Source of the DNA: Gammaproteobacteria bacterium
GTDB lineage: Bacteria > Pseudomonadota > Gammaproteobacteria > Immundisolibacterales > JAKLLR01
Assembly (NCBI GenBank): GCA_022014175.1
Contig: JAKLLR010000005.1
Span: 1 to 47,344, forward strand
Reading direction: 5' to 3'
Length of the DNA stretch: 47,344 nt
The notes beneath the pieces were generated by a model. It did no database searches, had not been told where the DNA came from, and worked only from the letters and a program-made list of their open reading frames with translations. Positions 26,019 to 34,912 of this stretch are shown one piece after another (the first letter of the stretch is position 1; every line of letters begins with the position of its first letter). The translations under genes and the position numbers were made by a program.

Positions 26019-26501
26019 TTAGATCGGATAGATGATGTAGCGGGGTGATACTGCGGTATCCGTAACAGCTAGCTTGGCCCGGAATCGGGCCTCTTCCCCA
26101 CAGAGCACGATTTGATCTTCATACTGACCGGTCACCAGCAGCCCGGTGTGGCCTTCGTGGTTGGTGTAGAAGACCGTAAAATTGGTGCGTGCGAGCAGGT
26201 CGCCGTTGTCCGTCCGGATGGCAGAGACGGGCTGTAGCATGTGGCGAGACTGATACCCCTCCACGGTCTCTCCCCAGACTTCATCTACAAATTTGACCCG
26301 ATCGACCAACCGTTCATGGCAGTCATCGAGCATCAGGCTCAGGGGCAAGCCCTGTTTAATGTTCTCCTGGCTGGTGAGTCGATACTGACCGTCATCGTTG
26401 AACAGCGCCAGCCAGGCTTGCATATTTCGTTGGTCGAGGGCGTCAATATATTGCTGTTGCAGGGTGTTGATGGCGCTGATTTGTTCGGCTGTCACTGTCA
26501 T
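26019..26501 (-). CDS. Aromatic-ring-hydroxylating dioxygenase beta subunit
   Basis: The 160-residue protein has the SnoaL/NTF2-like beta-subunit fold: N-terminal helices (INTLQQQYIDALDQRNMQAWLALFNDDGQYRL), then HMLQPVSAIRTDNGDLLARTNFTVFYT and the strand-rich tail ending AVSPRYIIYPI, as in RHO small subunits (usual length 160-190). It has no redox centre and stabilises the alpha subunit hexamer. The gene starts four bases after the alpha-subunit stop codon, so the pair is translated together. Confidence 0.85.
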   Translation of the reverse strand: MTVTAEQISAINTLQQQYIDALDQRNMQAWLALFNDDGQYRLTSQENIKQGLPLSLMLDDCHERLVDRVKFVDEVWGETVEGYQSRHMLQPVSAIRTDNGDLLARTNFTVFYTNHEGHTGLLVTGQYEDQIVLCGEEARFRAKLAVTDTAVSPRYIIYPI

Positions 26502-26505
26502 GAGC

Positions 26506-27681
26506 TCAATAACCCATCAGCTGTTTATATTCAGACCACCAGACAGTGGAGACGGTCTCGTCGTTCTGAGCGCTGGTTTTACGATCCGGCACCGCTGTGC
26601 CGATGCCTTTGACGAAGTTCATGGTGCCCACGCCACCAGTCACCCCTTTCTGGCAACGATCAAATACGGAGCCATCCTCAATGCTGACAAAGCCGCTTGG
26701 GCCAAGCAAATTAGAGCTCTGGCGGACCCGATGTTTCAGCATCTCCGGGGAGTCATCTTCGTAACCGTAATAGCCGTAGTGAACTTCGGTTTTATCCACC
26801 CCAAGCGGTCGACCGAAGCGGAAATTGATACTGTTGAAATGGCGCACCACCTGGGTGACCGGCCTGATTAGCGCGCCGGCTGCGGTGGTTTCATCCCCCT
26901 TGACTTCAACCAGCTCCGGGTCGGACAGGAAGCCGTTGTCCTTGTACCGTTCGACGGCATAGGCCATGCCCCAGTTGCCGGCGGGGCCATCGGCGAAGAG
27001 CTCGCCCTTGCCGCCCTGAAAATTCAGTAGACGAAAGGCGGTGTGGAGTAGACCGGCGTGGTAGCCATCGTTATCCATGTAGACCTTCCAGTTGCAGTTG
27101 AATACGACCTTCTGGTAGCCGAGTAATTTAAGTGGCCGGGTGCCATCTCCGACGCAGGATTTGAGGGCATCGCCAACCCGTCCGAAATAGACTTCAATGG
27201 GTGGAGTATTGTCGGGGTCAAAGGTGGCGAAGATAACCCCGTAAAAATTCACGGTTTTCAGCTCTTTCAGTCCGGACTCGGACTTGCAGAAGGCTGCGGG
27301 AAAGGTTTCATCCCCGGGCGCACCCAACAGGCTGCCATCGGTGGCAAAAACCCAGCGGTGATAGGGGCAGGTGAAGCGTTTGGCGGAGCCCCGGGGGGCA
27401 ACGGTGAGTTGTACCCCGCGGTGGGCGCAGGCGTTGATAAATGCCCGGCATTGACCGTCTTCGCTGTGGGTGACCAGTACCGGTGTTTCACCTACCGTGA
27501 GGGTTTTGAAGTCGTTAGGTGTCGGGATTTCGGCGACCAGAGCCACGGGGTGCCAGAACGGACCGCGGAATATCCGCTCCATCTCCAGCTGATAAATCTC
27601 GGGATCGGTGTAGAACTCGTAGGGGATTTTGGTCGAGTCTGACCAGGCGGCCAGGCTCGACACTTCTGTCGGTTGGTTCAT
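26506..27681 (-). CDS. Rieske non-haem iron oxygenase alpha subunit
   Basis: The 391-residue protein has the Rieske [2Fe-2S] motif CAH (Cys85, His87) and CPYH (Cys105, His108), and the mononuclear iron motif in DNDGYHAGLLH (Asp205 bridge, His208, His213) after the conserved NWKVYMDN. A further iron-ligand Asp is expected near the C-terminus. It catalyses dioxygenation or monooxygenation of aromatic compounds at a cytosolic site. At 391 residues it is shorter than typical benzoate/toluate or naphthalene dioxygenases (about 430-460), so substrate class cannot be read from length. No ferredoxin or reductase gene is nearby. It is the first gene of the minus-strand unit alpha-beta-alkB-adh and is divergent to an SDR gene. 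Confidence 0.92.
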   Translation of the reverse strand: MNQPTEVSSLAAWSDSTKIPYEFYTDPEIYQLEMERIFRGPFWHPVALVAEIPTPNDFKTLTVGETPVLVTHSEDGQCRAFINACAHRGVQLTVAPRGSAKRFTCPYHRWVFATDGSLLGAPGDETFPAAFCKSESGLKELKTVNFYGVIFATFDPDNTPPIEVYFGRVGDALKSCVGDGTRPLKLLGYQKVVFNCNWKVYMDNDGYHAGLLHTAFRLLNFQGGKGELFADGPAGNWGMAYAVERYKDNGFLSDPELVEVKGDETTAAGALIRPVTQVVRHFNSINFRFGRPLGVDKTEVHYGYYGYEDDSPEMLKHRVRQSSNLLGPSGFVSIEDGSVFDRCQKGVTGGVGTMNFVKGIGTAVPDRKTSAQNDETVSTVWWSEYKQLMGY

Positions 27682-27765
27682 CGGGACTCTCCTTTCCTCA
27701 TCGATGCTTTAATGATTGTGTATGCGGTAGCACCTCGCGGGAGCCTACAATATTAATTTTCGTGG

Positions 27766-27793
27766 TGCAACGCACAATTTTAGTTGCGTTGCA
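27766..27793. promoter_or_regulatory. Candidate operator: 9+9 bp inverted repeat in the Rieske/SDR divergent region
   Basis: TGCAACGCA (27766-27774) and TGCGTTGCA (27785-27793) are perfect reverse complements separated by ten bases, with arm centres 19 bases apart, about two helical turns, which suits a dimeric regulator. It lies in the 223-base gap between divergent start codons. On the minus strand a TTGTGC/TAATAT pair with a 16-base spacer overlaps the left arm, so a bound protein would sit on that promoter. The regulator is not identifiable; no obvious catabolic regulator gene adjoins. Confidence 0.55.
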
Positions 27794-27904
27794 ATACCTT
27801 TCGCCATCGGCGGATATTAAATATGAAATAGTGGACTGAAGCGGTGTTCGGAGATAAGTTTTAGAAAACAGGGTGCGGGACTCGAAAAAGGGAGAGGAGT
27901 CGTG

Positions 27905-28690
27905 ATGACTGACGGAGATCTGGCCGGGCAGATTGGCCTCATAACGGGTGGCGGTGCAGGTATCGGCCGGGCAATCGCCCTGGAGTGGGCCGCCCGTGGC
28001 GGAAAAGCCGTGGTGGCGGATCTCTCTGTCGAGGCCGCCACGGCTGTGGTTTCAGAGATTGAATCGGCTGGGGGTGAGGCGCTGTCGGTGGTGGTTGATG
28101 TGACTGATCCGGCGGCGATTAAAGCGATGCTCCACACCACTCTGGAGCGGTTCCGCAGAGTCGATGCGCTGTTCAATGTCGCCGGGAACAACAGCTTTAA
28201 AAACGTCGAAGAGGCAGAGGACGAGGAGTGGCAGTTCATCTTCGACACCAATCTGCGTTCGATCTATCGCATCTGCAAGCTGGTCATTCCAGAGATGCGC
28301 CGCCAGGGTGGCGGGGCGATTGTTAACGTCGCCTCTACGGCCGGTATTCTGGCGGAGAACCGTTGCGCGGCTTACACCGCCAGCAAAGCTGGAGTGATCG
28401 GCCTGGGCAAGAATATGGCGATGGATTTTGCCCGGGACGGCATCCGGGTTAATACCCTCTGTCCCGGCGGCACCATGACCCCTCGGGCGGAACGCTATCT
28501 GGGTCAGAATCCGGAGGCGCTGGCACAACTGGAGGGGCAGACCGCGATGAAACGGCTGGCACAACCCGAAGAGATCGCCCGGCCCGCTGTATTTCTGGCC
28601 TCGCCGGCAGCCTCGTACATTACCGGCGCAGCCATTGTGGTTGATGGCGGTATGACCGCTGGCAAGCATATCGATCTGTTTGACCAGTAG
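27905..28690 (+). CDS. SDR-family oxidoreductase
   Basis: I take ATG 27905 as start, five bases after AGGAG, although GTG 27902 just before is used by the track; 261 residues. It has the classical SDR pattern: TGGGAGIG cofactor loop, NVAGNN, catalytic Ser in NVASTAGIL, and YTASK. The ADLS end of beta-2 (Asp) suggests NAD preference. It is divergent to the Rieske oxygenase operon and shares its control region, so cis-dihydrodiol dehydrogenase is a reasonable but unproved role; ordinary 3-oxoacyl/cyclohexanol-type reductases look similar. It ends 83 bases before the convergent LysR gene. Confidence 0.88.
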   Translation: MTDGDLAGQIGLITGGGAGIGRAIALEWAARGGKAVVADLSVEAATAVVSEIESAGGEALSVVVDVTDPAAIKAMLHTTLERFRRVDALFNVAGNNSFKNVEEAEDEEWQFIFDTNLRSIYRICKLVIPEMRRQGGGAIVNVASTAGILAENRCAAYTASKAGVIGLGKNMAMDFARDGIRVNTLCPGGTMTPRAERYLGQNPEALAQLEGQTAMKRLAQPEEIARPAVFLASPAASYITGAAIVVDGGMTAGKHIDLFDQ

Positions 28691-28773: not shown

Positions 28774-29697
28774 CTAAATGTGCATCGCCGCATCGATATA
28801 TTGCCGTTTCAGATAGGGCGCATAGAGCTGCAGGAAGGTGTAGATAAACCCCCGGAGATAAGCGCTTCGGCGCAGCACCAGCCGGGTAGTGCTGCGATCA
28901 AACAGGTGGCTGGCATCAATCTGGACCAGATCTCCATCCGCGGAGGCATCGTAGGCTTGATTGGCGATGACGCCGACGCCCAGCCCCTGGCGAACATAGG
29001 TTTTGATTACGTCTGAATCGGTGGCGGCGAAGCTGATATTCGGAGTCAGGTTGTGTTCCGCAAAGGCCCGTTCCAGCGGTGAATGGCTGGCATCAAGTGC
29101 AAAGGCGTAGGTGGCGATGGGGTGCCGCGCCAGCTGTTTCATGGTCACTTCGCCGCTGCGGCTCAGGGGGTGGTCCAGCGGCACAACGAGGCAACGATCC
29201 CAGGGTTCGCAGGGCAGGGCCACGAGGTCATCATTCAGCTCGGTCTCTTCGGTCAATATGGCCAGATCGGTGCGGCCCTCCAGCAACCATTGAGTCGACT
29301 CGGTGGGTCCACCGATATGCAGGTCGACCCGAATCAGGGGGTACTGTTGGTGGAACTGTCGGAGCAGATCCGGCAGCACATAACGGGCCTGGGTGTGGGT
29401 GGTGGCGATGCTCAGGGTGCCGGTGGTTTCATTGGCGAACTCTTCGGCGACCCGTTGGATGTTGATCGTGTCTCGCAGAATTCGCTCGGCAATCTGTAAA
29501 ATCTGCTGGCCCGGCGGGGTGATTTCTGTTAGCCGCTTGCCGTTGCGTGCGAAAATCTGTACCCCCAGCTCCTCCTCAAGCTGCTGAATCTGCTTGCTGA
29601 CTGCGGGCTGGGAGGTATGCAGGGTGGTCGCCGCTGTGGAGATGTTCAGGGCGCTGCGCGCGACCTCCAGAATATAACGAAGCTGTTGCAGTTTCAT
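28774..29697 (-). CDS. cysB: CysB-type LysR transcriptional regulator
   Basis: The 307-residue protein starts MKLQQLRYILEVARSALNIS and has the winged-helix motif TLHTSQPAVSKQIQQLEEELG, then the effector domain with IATTHTQARYVLP, very close to the CysB sulfate/acetylserine site, and ATDSDVIKTYVRQGLGVGVIA. Against E. coli CysB, the segment TFGFTGR reads AFALDAS here, removing the TGR part of that loop (from memory of CysB). CysB activates sulfur-assimilation genes in response to acetylserine. It is divergent to the tauE-sulfite reductase-cysH genes, which fits this role. Length is slightly less than the usual 324. Confidence 0.9.
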   Translation of the reverse strand: MKLQQLRYILEVARSALNISTAATTLHTSQPAVSKQIQQLEEELGVQIFARNGKRLTEITPPGQQILQIAERILRDTINIQRVAEEFANETTGTLSIATTHTQARYVLPDLLRQFHQQYPLIRVDLHIGGPTESTQWLLEGRTDLAILTEETELNDDLVALPCEPWDRCLVVPLDHPLSRSGEVTMKQLARHPIATYAFALDASHSPLERAFAEHNLTPNISFAATDSDVIKTYVRQGLGVGVIANQAYDASADGDLVQIDASHLFDRSTTRLVLRRSAYLRGFIYTFLQLYAPYLKRQYIDAAMHI

Positions 29698-29806: not shown

Positions 29807-30583
29807 ATGGATTTTCTCTTCTCCATATCGGGATTCCTGGTCGGTCTTTTGATCGGCCTGACCGGGGTTGGCGGTGGTGCGCTGATGACGCCGATTCTGA
29901 TTTTCGGCTTCGCAGTGCCCCCGGTGACTGCGGTGGGTACAGATCTGCTGTTTGCCTCCATTACCAAAAGCGCCGGGGTGCTGGGACATCGAAAAACGAA
30001 CAGTGTCGACTGGCGCGTGGTGCGTCTGCTGGCGTTCGGCAGCCTGCCGTCGGCGCTGGTGGCCGTCTGGTTGTTACAGGGCTTCAGTCACGATCCCCAA
30101 ATGGTTGAACAGCTAGTTACACGGGCGCTGGGTGTGGCACTGGTGCTCACTTCCATCATGATTTTCGCCCGGGGCTGGTTACGCAGGCTGGGTGATCAAG
30201 TGGCCCCCGGCAGTCGGCTGTCTGATCTGCAGCTCACCTGCTTGACCCTGCTATTTGGCGTAGTGGTTGGCGCGCTTGTGGCGCTGACATCCGTCGGCGC
30301 GGGGGCAGTCGGTGTGGCGGTGCTGTTTTTTCTCTATCCAGCGTTCTCTTCTCTTAAAATCGTAGGCACGGATCTGGCTCATGCGGTGCTGCTGACCGGT
30401 GTCGCGGGTCTGGGGCATCTCAAAATGGGCAGCGTCGATTTCGGCCTGCTTGGATATCTGTTGCTCGGCTCGCTGCCCGGCATCTGGCTCGGGGTGAAGC
30501 TGAGCACCCGGGTGCCTGATGATCTTTTGCGTTATCTGTTGGCCTGTCTGCTGATGTTGACCGGGTTGAGATTTGCATTGTGA
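29807..30583 (+). CDS. TauE/SafE family anion (sulfite) exporter
   Basis: The 258-residue polytopic protein has the two TauE/SafE repeats: FLVGLLIGLTGVGGGALMTPIL near the N-terminus and LFGVVVGALVALTSVGAGAVGVAVLFFLYP in the middle, each followed by a G-T-D-L segment (AVGTDLLFASITK, IVGTDLAHAVLLTG). Members export sulfite, sulfoacetate or related anions from the cytosol. Here it directly precedes sulfite reductase under the apparent control of a CysB-type regulator, which suggests relief of sulfite overflow or movement of a sulfur anion. The downstream reading frame begins close to or overlapping its stop. Confidence 0.85.
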   Translation: MDFLFSISGFLVGLLIGLTGVGGGALMTPILIFGFAVPPVTAVGTDLLFASITKSAGVLGHRKTNSVDWRVVRLLAFGSLPSALVAVWLLQGFSHDPQMVEQLVTRALGVALVLTSIMIFARGWLRRLGDQVAPGSRLSDLQLTCLTLLFGVVVGALVALTSVGAGAVGVAVLFFLYPAFSSLKIVGTDLAHAVLLTGVAGLGHLKMGSVDFGLLGYLLLGSLPGIWLGVKLSTRVPDDLLRYLLACLLMLTGLRFAL

Positions 30584-30605: not shown

Positions 30606-32900
30606 ATGAGTGGAATAAGCGCTCTGGCGAGACCCGACGAGGTGGTCCGGTATGGCGGCCTGGTGGAGCGATTCCTGGCTGGTGGCATGGACCCGGATCA
30701 GTTCATGTCTGCGCGGTTGCAGTTCGGGGTCTACGGCCAGCGCCAGGAGGGTGTGCAGATGATGCGCATCAAGATTCCAGGCGGCTGTCTGAGCCGTGAG
30801 CAGCTGGAGGCCGTGGCAGAGGTGGTGGCAAGCTGTTCCGACCATGATGGCGCCCATATCACCACCCGCCAGGATCTGCAGGTTCACTACATTCCACTGG
30901 CAAAAACTCCGGATGCCATGGGCATTCTGGCCGACGCCGGTCTGACCACCCGGGAAGCCTGCGGTAACACCGTGCGTAATATCACGGCGGACTCTCTTGC
31001 CGGTATAAACCCGGGTGAGCTGGTGGATGTGCGGCCCTTTGTGGATGCTGCGGCCCGATATTTTCTGCGCCATCCCCTGACCCAGCATCTGCCGCGAAAA
31101 TTCAAGATCAGTTTCTCCGGTAGCGAAGCCGATGGCGCTCAGGCCCTGATGCACGATCTGGGTCTCGTCGCCTGTTTCCAGGATGGGCAGTTCGGTTTCC
31201 GTCTCCTCGCCGGTGGCGGCCTGGGCCATAAACCCCGGCAAGCCGTGGTGCTCGAAGAGTTGCTTCCGGAGGCAGATCTGCTGCCCGCGATGGAAGCGGT
31301 GATTACCGTGCACCACACCTACTCCGACCGCAGTAAACGGGCCAGGTCCCGGATCAAGTTTTTAGTCGATCGGTTCGGTGCCGAGGGCTTCCGGGAAAAA
31401 TACCAGGCGGCCTTTGAGCGAACTCGAGCCGCGTTTGCGGGACGGGACTACCCCCAGGGTGACTGGGCAGTGCCTGCTCAGGCTGACCCCGGTCTGGTCG
31501 GTGCGCCGCGAGGGCCGTTTCAACAGAAACAGCCGGGTTACTGGATTGTGCCGCTGGCCGTGCCGCTAGGCACTTTAAAGCTGATGCAGATCAACGCATT
31601 GACCGCCATCATGACCCGATTCGAACTGACCGCCCTGCGCACAACCCAGGACCAGAACCTCTGTCTGGTTGATGTGCCAGAGGCCGCACTGGCCGATCTC
31701 ACCTCAGCTCTGGAGTCAGGCGGTTTTCAATGGCCCGCTGAGGGGAATGATGTGGTGGCCTGCCCCGGCACGTCCACCTGTCGGCTCGGCATTACCTCCT
31801 CCATGAAGGTGGCGGAGATGCTGGATGGTGGTAGCGGTGATCTGCGTATTCGGGTCAGTGGTTGCCACAACGGCTGCGCCCAGCCCGAGACCGGTGACAT
31901 CGGTATTTTCGGTGAGGGTAAACGCTGCTTTGGCCGTTTGATTCCCCACTATCGGTTGTATCTCGGGGGTGATGGCCGCTTTGGTGGGACACTGGCGGTT
32001 CGTGGCCCGTCAATACCAAGCGCCCGGGTGATCGAGGCAATCGAACGAATCAAGAGAGATTGGGCAGAATCCGGCGTGCCGCTCTTTTTCGACTGGGCCC
32101 AGACCCAGGGTGGCGACTGGTTCAGCAGCCGTTTGGAGGATCTCAGCCGGATAGACGAAGCCGATCTTGACGATTTGAGTTCGGATCATGGTGAAGAGAA
32201 TCACTTCAAAGTGCTGCAACTCGGTGGCGGGGAGTGCGCCGGTGCGGCTCAGGAGTATCTGGCCTCCAATTTTGCCGAAGTGGCTCACGAACTGGGTTAT
32301 GCCCGGATTTTTGCCCAGCAGCGCAAACCCCGGGACTCCAGTGATTGCGCCGTGAAGGTGCTGGAGCTGCTGGCGGATGCGGTGCTGTTCGTCAACGGCG
32401 AACAGTCCCTGAGTTCACTGCCCGAGCGGATTCAGCAGGTTGTAACCGGGTTGGCTGATGACCTCGCCCTTGCTGATGCGCTGGTGAGCCTCTCCGATCG
32501 GGCCGTGCAACTGCAAGCCGAAGGTGGGTCGGTTACGCCGGAGAAGGGACTGGCGTTTGTGGATGAGCTTGAGGGGGTGTCTCAGAGCGCACTGGCCTAC
32601 TGCAAGGCCCGTGACGCACAGCTGGTGCTCTCCAGCAGTTTGCTGGCCGACGGAGGTCAGCCGGTAGCAGAGGCCATGCCGGTCTCCGACATCACCGCCT
32701 ACGCCTGCCCGTTGCACTACGTAAAGGCCAGGCAGGCGTTGGCTCAGGTTGAGCCTGGCCGCCAGCTGGAGTTCATGATCAAGACCGGGGAGCCGACGGA
32801 GCAGATTCACGAGAGCCTGCTGCATGACGGCCATCAGGTTCGTTCAGTTGAGGAGCGGGATGGGGTGACCCATCTGATTGTAGCGCGCAAATCCGCATGA
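30606..32900 (+). CDS. Nitrite/sulfite reductase fused to a C-terminal TusA-like domain
   Basis: From ATG 30606 the protein has 764 residues; a TTG at 30573 is an alternative start and neither has a clear Shine-Dalgarno. Residues 1-about 530 are a sirohaem nitrite/sulfite reductase (DGAHITTRQDLQVHYIP; the [4Fe-4S]-sirohaem cysteines are Cys386 and Cys392 in CPGTSTC and Cys420 and Cys424 in CHNGC). CysI is about 570 residues, so roughly 200 residues are extra: a helical linker domain (about 535-680) and a TusA-like end with Cys701 in ACPLHYVKARQAL and EFMIKTGEP. The TusA motif CPxP reads CPLH here. It should reduce sulfite to sulfide; the sulfurtransferase-like end could accept sulfur. Neighbours are tauE and cysH. 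Confidence 0.85.
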   Translation: MSGISALARPDEVVRYGGLVERFLAGGMDPDQFMSARLQFGVYGQRQEGVQMMRIKIPGGCLSREQLEAVAEVVASCSDHDGAHITTRQDLQVHYIPLAKTPDAMGILADAGLTTREACGNTVRNITADSLAGINPGELVDVRPFVDAAARYFLRHPLTQHLPRKFKISFSGSEADGAQALMHDLGLVACFQDGQFGFRLLAGGGLGHKPRQAVVLEELLPEADLLPAMEAVITVHHTYSDRSKRARSRIKFLVDRFGAEGFREKYQAAFERTRAAFAGRDYPQGDWAVPAQADPGLVGAPRGPFQQKQPGYWIVPLAVPLGTLKLMQINALTAIMTRFELTALRTTQDQNLCLVDVPEAALADLTSALESGGFQWPAEGNDVVACPGTSTCRLGITSSMKVAEMLDGGSGDLRIRVSGCHNGCAQPETGDIGIFGEGKRCFGRLIPHYRLYLGGDGRFGGTLAVRGPSIPSARVIEAIERIKRDWAESGVPLFFDWAQTQGGDWFSSRLEDLSRIDEADLDDLSSDHGEENHFKVLQLGGGECAGAAQEYLASNFAEVAHELGYARIFAQQRKPRDSSDCAVKVLELLADAVLFVNGEQSLSSLPERIQQVVTGLADDLALADALVSLSDRAVQLQAEGGSVTPEKGLAFVDELEGVSQSALAYCKARDAQLVLSSSLLADGGQPVAEAMPVSDITAYACPLHYVKARQALAQVEPGRQLEFMIKTGEPTEQIHESLLHDGHQVRSVEERDGVTHLIVARKSA

Positions 32901-32949: not shown

Positions 32950-33636
32950 ATGGCACTTCAAGAGAAAATCAGTCAGTCAGTGGCTCTACTGGAAAAGATC
33001 GCCGCGGAGTTTAGCCCCGCCGTGCTGGCAAACAGCTTCGGTGCGGAAGATATGGTGCTTACGGACTTGATCGGCCGTAACAAGATCGGCGTCGGCATTA
33101 TCACCCTCGATACGGGACGTCTGCACGACGAAACCTACGCCTTGATGGATGAGGTTCGGGAGAAGTACGGCAATATCGTAGTGCCCTTTTTTCCCCGCTT
33201 TGAGGCGGTTGAGGAGTATGTGCGGAGTGAAGGGGCCAACGGCTTTTATCGCTCCGTTGAGTCCCGCAAACGTTGCTGCGCCATCCGCAAGATTGAGCCT
33301 CTTAAAAGGGCCCTGGCCGGCAACAAAGCCTGGATCACCGGGTTGCGTCGAGCGCAGGCGCCGACCCGCACCGATCTGACTGATCGCGAGTGGGACGAAG
33401 GCAACAATATGGAGAAGTTCAATCCGCTGATTGAATGGACCGAAGAGGATGTCTGGGCGTATCTGCGGGCCAATGACGTGCCCTATAACAAACTGCACGA
33501 TCAGAATTTCCCCAGCATCGGTTGCTCCCCCTGCACCCGGGCGATTGCCAAGGGTGAGGATGTCCGCGCCGGCCGTTGGTGGTGGGAAGACCCGACCCTG
33601 AAAGAGTGTGGCCTGCATGTGAAACAGGCCAGTTAG
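32950..33636 (+). CDS. cysH: Assimilatory adenylyl-/phosphoadenylyl-sulfate reductase
   Basis: The 228-residue protein contains ANSFGAEDMVLTDL (PAPS-reductase/ATP-pyrophosphatase-type loop), RKRCCAIRKIEPLKRAL, GCSPCTRAI and the C-terminal ECGLH catalytic cysteine. The CC plus CxxC pairs are the [4Fe-4S] ligands that distinguish APS reductases (as in Pseudomonas and plants) from the cluster-free PAPS reductase of E. coli, so APS is the probable substrate. It gives sulfite for the reductase encoded just upstream (49 bases). RBS AAGGAAAAA precedes the ATG. Genes for ATP sulfurylase are not in the window. Confidence 0.93.
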   Translation: MALQEKISQSVALLEKIAAEFSPAVLANSFGAEDMVLTDLIGRNKIGVGIITLDTGRLHDETYALMDEVREKYGNIVVPFFPRFEAVEEYVRSEGANGFYRSVESRKRCCAIRKIEPLKRALAGNKAWITGLRRAQAPTRTDLTDREWDEGNNMEKFNPLIEWTEEDVWAYLRANDVPYNKLHDQNFPSIGCSPCTRAIAKGEDVRAGRWWWEDPTLKECGLHVKQAS

Positions 33637-33677: not shown

Positions 33678-33699
33678 AACCGGCTTCGGCCGGTTTTTT
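33678..33699 (+). terminator. Intrinsic terminator after cysH
   Basis: A perfect 7 bp stem AACCGGC/GCCGGTT with the stable TTCG tetraloop is followed by TTTT on the plus strand. It lies 41 bases after the cysH stop, closing the sulfur-assimilation unit before the Old Yellow Enzyme gene. Confidence 0.9.
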
Positions 33700-33751
33700 G
33701 TTGGCCTATAATCGAGAAAACTGTCAGACCAGAATCACCAAGGATCAAATC

Positions 33752-34912
33752 ATGTCGAACGCCTATAGCCCTCTTTTCACACCCATTCAGTTGAATGGAA
33801 CCTGTTTGCGAAACCGCATTGTGATGGCCCCGATGACCCGCTCATTCTGCGGCCAGGAGGGGGTGCCGGGCGCGGATGTGGCGGCCTACTACGCCGCCCG
33901 TGCGGAGGGTGGCGTGGGTTTGATCGTGACCGAAGGTGTGGTCGTCAATATGGCGGATGCCCGGGGGTACGGCGGCGTCCCCGGCCTGGCCAATGCCGCC
34001 CAGGTTGAGGGCTGGAAAGAGGTTGTGACGGGGGTCCACCAGCACGACGGTGCCATCGCACCCCAGCTCTGGCATGCGGGACGACTGGCCCACTCCCGGG
34101 CAACCGGTGGCCTACAGCCCGTGGCGCCAAGCGCAATTCGGGCCTCCGGCGCTTATATGGATGTGGCCGATCCCAGCACATTGACGGGTGAGATTCCCTA
34201 CGAAGTCCCAAAGGCGCTGACTGAAGCCGAAATTGAAGCGATTATTCAGCAGTTTGGCGAGGCGGCAGTTCGCAGCAAAGAGGCGGGGTTTGACGCCATC
34301 GAACTGCATGGTGCCAGCGGCTATCTGATACACCAGTTCATGAATCCGGAGAGCAATCGGCGGAGCGACGACTATGGCGGTGACGTCGAGCGGCGGGCTG
34401 AGTTTGCAGCGCGGATCGTGCAGGCAATCAGAGCCGCAGTTGGCCCGGATCTACCGGTCATCATGCGGCTGGCGCAGTTCGCCATCAATGACTTTGAGTG
34501 GCAGACCTGGGCAAACCCTGACGAGCTTGAGTGCACCGTGAAGCGGCTGGTGGCTGCAGGCGTGAGTCTCTTTCATGCCTCATCCCACCGTTTGAATACT
34601 CCGGCATTTCCATGGCTGCATGGTGCAAACGGGCGCAGCCTTTCGTCTTATATCAAGGAGTTTTCCGGTTGCCCAACCATCGCTGTGGGTGGTGTCTCCT
34701 ACAGTGCCACGGTATTTGAGTCCCTCGGCGGCGGGACGTGCGCGGTCACTGATCCAATCGACGCCGCAGCCATGATTGAAGCGGGAGATGCAGACCTGAT
34801 CGCCATCGGTCGGGCGCTGATCAGCAACCCCGACTGGTGTCGCAAAGTCGAAGCGGGGGAGTGGCGGAGCCTGCTGCCATTTGGTCGTGAGGCGCTGATG
34901 TCCCTGGATTAA
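33752..34912 (+). CDS. NADH:flavin oxidoreductase, Old Yellow Enzyme family
   Basis: The start is ATG 33752 (MSNAYSPLFTPI) with AAGGA seven bases upstream; the track start lies in the terminator region. The 386-residue TIM barrel has the OYE pattern: RIVMAPMTRS, QLWHAGR, the catalytic-site ELHGASGYLIHQFMNPESN (family: H-G-A-x-G-Y-L), RRSDDYGG and the late GRALISNPDW for FMN phosphate. It reduces activated C=C bonds or nitro compounds with NAD(P)H; the substrate is unknown. It is a single gene between the cysH terminator and the host-attachment gene. Confidence 0.92.
   Translation: MSNAYSPLFTPIQLNGTCLRNRIVMAPMTRSFCGQEGVPGADVAAYYAARAEGGVGLIVTEGVVVNMADARGYGGVPGLANAAQVEGWKEVVTGVHQHDGAIAPQLWHAGRLAHSRATGGLQPVAPSAIRASGAYMDVADPSTLTGEIPYEVPKALTEAEIEAIIQQFGEAAVRSKEAGFDAIELHGASGYLIHQFMNPESNRRSDDYGGDVERRAEFAARIVQAIRAAVGPDLPVIMRLAQFAINDFEWQTWANPDELECTVKRLVAAGVSLFHASSHRLNTPAFPWLHGANGRSLSSYIKEFSGCPTIAVGGVSYSATVFESLGGGTCAVTDPIDAAAMIEAGDADLIAIGRALISNPDWCRKVEAGEWRSLLPFGREALMSLD

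Follow-up and report, generated by a model that had tools for sequence, protein, structure and literature searches.

What would a sulfite reductase do with a sulfur carrier of its own? The question is raised by a gene on contig JAKLLR010000005.1 of a gammaproteobacterial assembly (GCA_022014175.1, order Immundisolibacterales), of which a stretch of 47,344 nucleotides, here called the window, was analyzed. A sequence-only reading had described this gene as a sulfite reductase (SiR) fused to a TusA-like domain, and the open reading frame was found where that reading had placed it, with an end that lies above the Pfam gathering score for TusA. Positions of all features are collected in Table 1.

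By Pfam, the window protein comprises two ferredoxin-like half domains, two NIR_SIR 4Fe-4S domains and TusA. An AlphaFold2 model based on a 61-sequence alignment (mean pLDDT 88.3, pTM 0.72) ends the SiR core at about residue 490, followed by a disordered loop at 534–545, a helical domain at about 541–669 and, between SiR and TusA, a linker of low model confidence at residues 682–692, predicted to be disordered or flexible at 682–689.

Table 1. Features of the window and poly-A tracts in the linker of related genes (window coordinates unless a locus is named).
Feature	Position	Strand	Remarks
CysB-family LysR regulator, divergent from operon	28774..29697	-	NCBIfam CysB family 400–403 bits, just below cut-offs
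TauE/SafE sulfite exporter-like membrane protein	29807..30583	+	PF01925 158 bits; syntenic
SiR–HEPN-like–TusA fusion	30606..32900	+	764 aa; ATG at 30606, stop ending at 32900
First SiR half, residues 43–271	30732..31418	+	PF03460 + PF01077; keeps R88, R124, K165, K167
First-half cluster motif, lost in window protein	30990..31136	+	D129, N135, S173, G177
Second SiR half, residues 305–485	31518..32060	+	Ligands C386, C392, C420, C424
GGGECAG loop, Cys544	32223..32243	+	Invariant; predicted flexible/disordered
HEPN-like four-helix domain, residues 541–669	32226..32612	+	Foldseek
Low-confidence linker, residues 682–692	32649..32681	+	AF2 model; poly-A site in some relatives
TusA domain	32688..32882	+	PF01206; Cys701 codon 32706–32708
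Thioredoxin-dependent APS reductase CysH	32950..33636	+	TIGR02055 260.6 bits, cut-off 235.3
Poly-A tracts in relatives	L057:6502, L060:2183, L075:6483, L082:6482, L045:6517, L046:3764, L050:6483, L051:6483, G358 (L146)		

The second-half motif C-x5-C...C-x3-C is intact, and the four sirohaem/iron-sulfur cysteines reported earlier are indeed present, as C386, C392, C420 and C424. Together with R88, R124, K165 and K167, which we take to correspond to active-site residues of the E. coli enzyme, they are invariant in 61/61 aligned proteins. With the cluster ligands, the active-site Arg/Lys set and an adjacent cysH all found, the core is predicted to be an assimilatory-type sirohaem sulfite reductase. 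Its scores lie far below all NCBIfam equivalog cut-offs (92.7 bits against 756.6 for the CysI equivalog TIGR02041, 196.8 against 523 for the NirA family). Note that C-x5-C and C-x3-C also occur in the first half of 60/60 aligned relatives, TusA-bearing or not; the window protein is the sole aligned member lacking all four first-half cysteines (positions 129, 135, 173 and 177), which align onto C386, C392, C420 and C424 when the halves are compared (hhalign, E 5.8e-12, prob 97.5). Assimilatory sulfite reductases have been described as retaining only a single sirohaem-cluster site out of an ancestral two (PMC10229431). PF00667, the flavoprotein module as in CysJ, was not found in the window genome (92.6% complete), so ferredoxin-type electrons are likely.

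Located after the SiR core, GGGECAG with Cys544 is present in 61/61 aligned proteins, and its GECAG core was also found in three distant proteins (L005, L006 and L160), all without TusA; the Cys544 loop is a possible mobile, sulfur-accepting element. For residues 541–669 of the window protein no Pfam match above noise was found, and a PDB profile search with the helical domain returned coiled-coil noise only, while Pfam HEPN was matched in 2 of 45 relatives' tail sequences. A separate model of the domain (pLDDT 85.0) gave 2hsb as its best Foldseek match (TMt 0.73, E 0.03), and several HEPN domains were among the top matches, none at E 0.001 or better. We describe the modeled fold as HEPN-like. 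The sequence-only reading had the tail ending in a TusA-like fold, which stands, but had missed both this domain and the GECAG loop.

The TusA similarity proposed for the tail was borne out by PF01206, which matches residues 695–759 (E 3e-9) with 36.9 bits, the gathering score being 28.6. Separately from Pfam, the TusA-fold protein TM0983 (1jdq) was matched by the tail alone using phmmer. The AlphaFold2 model has the TusA order beta-alpha-beta-alpha-beta-beta (strands 693–695, 720–726, 744–751 and 754–760; helices 703–713 and 729–740), with Cys701 directly ahead of the first helix. DUF934 was ruled out as the identity of the tail, since Pfam gave no DUF934 match there. Cys701 lies within CPLHYVKA as claimed, and the Cys701-Pro702 pair is kept in all 41 TusA-bearing loci examined. 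Position 704 is His in 40/41 of these loci and Asn in the other (CPVNF; L052, a Hydrogenophilales MAG). Because the second Pro of CPxP is replaced by His704 in the window protein, the tail is assigned by sequence to the TusA superfamily rather than to TusA proper. His704 is a subfamily hallmark, not a lesion. The Pro-to-His change that had been pointed out is thus present, but the suggestion that it alters activity locally is unsupported because His is the family state. A locally mutated TusA was ruled out, Cys-Pro being invariant and His family-wide. Both conditions that the sequence-only reading had named as refuting it (no TusA similarity in the tail, or Cys701 not conserved in orthologues) were checked, and the idea withstood them; the attached cysteine may channel or sense sulfur, as that reading proposed.

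To survey the fusion, genome contigs of 84,980 species were scanned with the tail, which gave 145 relatives; analysis was performed on the best 80 of these 145. The fusion is not confined to this genome: 41 of the best 80 bear TusA (37 in frame and 4 frame-shifted) and 39 do not. TusA bearers, some 40 species, are almost all uncultured gammaproteobacterial MAGs, and the TusA-bearing form, frame-shifted cases included, occurs in roughly 6% of 369 evenly sampled genomes of the class. Relatives without TusA are mostly betaproteobacteria (among them Nitrosomonas, Nitrosospira and Gallionella), whose orthologues end before TusA; no TusA was found in the fetched flanks of these loci. These orthologues indicate that TusA is not needed for sulfite reduction. 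Within the window's order (8 genomes), the fusion was found in the window's own genome only, and three other genomes have, next to an SDR gene, a 96-aa open frame for a standalone protein with CPLHYVKAR. The standalone copies (L014:1468-1731, L143:8674-8949 and L018) lie directly 3' of that SDR gene, whose product is 60–63% identical to that of window 27902–28690, and the SiR fusion is absent there. In a tree, the window protein occupies a long branch (1.26) with no firm kin. A scan of viral contigs gave no match, and no plasmid record covered 80% of the window protein.

The usual gene order in relatives is cysB (opposite strand), tauE, SiR and cysH, with a CysB-type regulator in the same position in most related loci. 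In 12 loci cysH was not found beside SiR, and TusA is present in 12/12 of them, which indicates that TusA stays with SiR. In one genome (G166, L145:6829-7062), a standalone CPMHY TusA is flanked by tauE and cysH in an operon tauE-tusA-cysH-cysD-cysN and is translationally coupled through overlapping start and stop codons, and CysI is some 6 kb away; from this setting, the TusA subtype belongs with sulfate assimilation also where it is not fused. The sulfur operon of the window is adjoined by genes for a Rieske ring-hydroxylating dioxygenase (alpha and beta) and an SDR at 26019–28690, and an OYE-type flavoprotein is found at 33698–34912. These neighbors possibly form a sulfite-releasing pathway for aromatic compounds or sulfonates.

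The reading that we tentatively favor is an assimilatory SiR to which a sulfur-carrier domain is tethered by a flexible linker, serving the sulfite-reduction step within a sulfate-assimilation operon. The single remaining sirohaem-[4Fe-4S] site would reduce sulfite with ferredoxin-type electrons, and a sulfur species would pass to Cys701 as a persulfide, perhaps via the mobile Cys544 loop, a relay step that is a guess. The persulfide would then go to sulfur-using partners, rather than all sulfur being released as free sulfide, an arrangement that would resemble DsrAB-DsrC within a single chain. Product loading on Cys701 is preferred because TusA remains with SiR where cysH is absent. Several considerations count against it: betaproteobacterial orthologues do without TusA, a persulfide requires sulfur at the S0 level, assimilatory sulfite reductases normally proceed to sulfide, their sirohaem is buried, and the TusA domain has no DsrC-like arm. 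Also against a carrier role, the window genome encodes a second, canonical CysI-type enzyme (L104:1105-3223; G000 contig C131). The ORF downstream of that gene is DUF934-like in appearance, and other NIR_SIR matches in the genome fall in a 576-aa and a 921-aa frame.

The main rival places TusA on the substrate side, where its Cys would accept the sulfo group of the S-sulfocysteine intermediate of CysH and bring it, as Cys-S-SO3, to the SiR core; toxic sulfite would then not be set free. In the usual gene order TusA does come after SiR and before cysH, the standalone TusA of G166 is coupled to cysH at a distance of some 6 kb from CysI, and the Cys of YeeD, a TusA-family protein, has been found with persulfide, perthiosulfonic acid and thiosulfonate (PMC11073785). 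We nevertheless consider this channel unlikely, given the 12 TusA-bearing loci without cysH alongside and the betaproteobacteria that have an adjacent cysH but lack TusA. Delivery in reverse seems very unlikely; here IscS or rhodaneses would supply sulfane sulfur, which TusA would bring to the SiR core to be reduced to sulfide. Canonical TusA is loaded with persulfide by IscS (PMC11073785), and the two further TusA homologues in the window genome would allow the fusion copy to be specialized, but the conserved cluster holds no gene for sulfane-sulfur supply.

The linker of the window gene is free of homopolymers, no slippery tract was found in it, and the gene is a plain fusion. In nine related genomes, the SiR-TusA linker contains a tract of A9 to A11 (L075, L082 and L051 are the same as G374, G151 and G263). 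TusA is out of frame in five of them (L057, L060, L075, L082 and G358), directly 3' of A9 or A10; the zero frame stops 0–6 codons past the tract, and one extra A, which amounts to a −1 ribosomal shift, would bring translation into TusA, whose relative frame is identical in all five. The C-terminus of L060 looks degenerate. In these five genomes no ATG, GTG or TTG was found ahead of the Cys in the TusA frame, and TusA as a separate gene in the shifted loci was thereby ruled out. In the other four, TusA is in frame across the tract (A9 in L045 and L046, A11 in L050 and L051), and one A added or removed leads to a stop within a few codons after it; with few exceptions, alternative frames run into a stop no more than a few codons on. 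The tract is probably a site of programmed slippage that would yield both SiR and SiR-TusA in some relatives, all of them MAGs.

All tract-bearing genomes being MAGs and homopolymers being error-prone, the shifts could instead reflect assembly or sequencing errors, with TusA always simply fused. We regard this as improbable. The 80 loci (881,811 nt) contain only 11 A or T homopolymers of nine or more nucleotides, and 8 of these fall in this ~75-nt linker, including in genomes of 66% GC; the out-of-frame cases share one relative frame; alternative frames end early; and pure errors do not explain the existence of the tract. In family f146, moreover, the tract is present in 5/5 genomes (A9, A10, A10, A11 and A11). 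Pairwise changes in the f146 TusA domains sum to 57, 44 and 144 at codon positions 1, 2 and 3 (in-frame L050 included), and this concentration at position 3 indicates selection on the TusA protein. A vestigial, functionless TusA domain might be suspected from its absence in sister betaproteobacteria and from the long window branch, but is scarcely credible given the third-position bias in the relatives' shifted frame and a Cys-Pro invariant over some 40 species. In L082 and G358 a stop comes after A-AAA-AAG. Hairpins lie downstream in f146 members (z −4.8, −3.2 and −2.1); no unusual hairpin was seen in the other tract-bearing lineages. The mechanism may be ribosomal frameshifting in f146 and, in the other lineages, transcriptional slippage.

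In some relatives, then, slippage on the poly-A linker would tune the share of enzyme bearing TusA. Such an isoform switch would also suit control of a non-catalytic module. Next in rank after the sulfo-group channel is a docking or regulatory TusA, one that would serve as binding site for a partner (cysteine synthase, cysteine desulfurase or CysB) or respond to persulfide by tuning SiR, while no sulfur is carried through it. The flexible tether and the dispensability of TusA in betaproteobacteria agree with this, but strict Cys-Pro conservation is unneeded in a mere docking module, and we judge it, too, unlikely. For the carrier speak the TusA match above the gathering score, Cys-Pro in 41/41 loci, invariant SiR residues, the conserved neighborhood and the flexible linker, and further the standalone TusA of G166, poly-A tracts in nine genomes together with purifying selection, and the lack of PF00667.

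The fusion shares pseudo-symmetric halves, the second-half C-x5-C...C-x3-C and the active-site Arg/Lys set with ferredoxin-type nitrite/sulfite reductases and CysI, to which it adds the GECAG loop, the HEPN-like domain and TusA. Like the carriers TusA, YeeD (TsuB) and YedF, it has the PF01206 fold with Cys-Pro where helix 1 begins; unlike them, it reads CPLHYxKAR in place of CPxP, scores below the NCBIfam YeeD and YedF cut-offs and is covalently fused to SiR. In Corynebacterium YeeE-YeeD fusions a TusA-family carrier is likewise joined to its partner by a linker (PMC11073785), but the partner there is a thiosulfate transporter rather than a reductase. DsrAB-DsrC, in which a sulfite reductase is served by a cysteine carrier protein of its own, is a likeness of working only: DsrAB has two sites and the relatives keep two cluster motifs, whereas here there is a single chain, an assimilatory operon, TusA instead of DsrC and, in the window protein, no second site. 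A fuller proposal, which we consider fairly unlikely as a whole, is an assimilatory lineage acting like a one-polypeptide DsrAB-DsrC, in which sulfur would move from sirohaem to the internal Cys loop and on to tethered TusA, most members would have both cluster sites, and poly-A recoding would set the relative amounts of enzyme without and with the carrier in several lineages. The relatives' A-AAA-AAG or A9 and longer tracts, predicted short and long products and, in one family, downstream stem-loop resemble dnaX-type frameshifting and poly-A transcriptional slippage; the domain gained or lost here is a sulfur carrier, and the tract is absent from the window gene. Recoding that adds or drops a sulfur carrier was not found in one survey and part of one review used for comparison. 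Each part is known, but no description of the SiR-TusA fusion, the CPLHY subtype, the relatives' recoding switch or the duplicated cluster motif was found in the open-access full texts searched, nor was the combination.

Assimilatory sulfite reductases have been described as releasing sulfide (PMC10229431); a clade with a covalent sulfur carrier makes it testable whether assimilatory sulfide is always free. The two intact motifs in the aligned relatives make it testable how a one-site enzyme arose. In some relatives, the poly-A linker would be a recoding switch that includes or omits the sulfur carrier.
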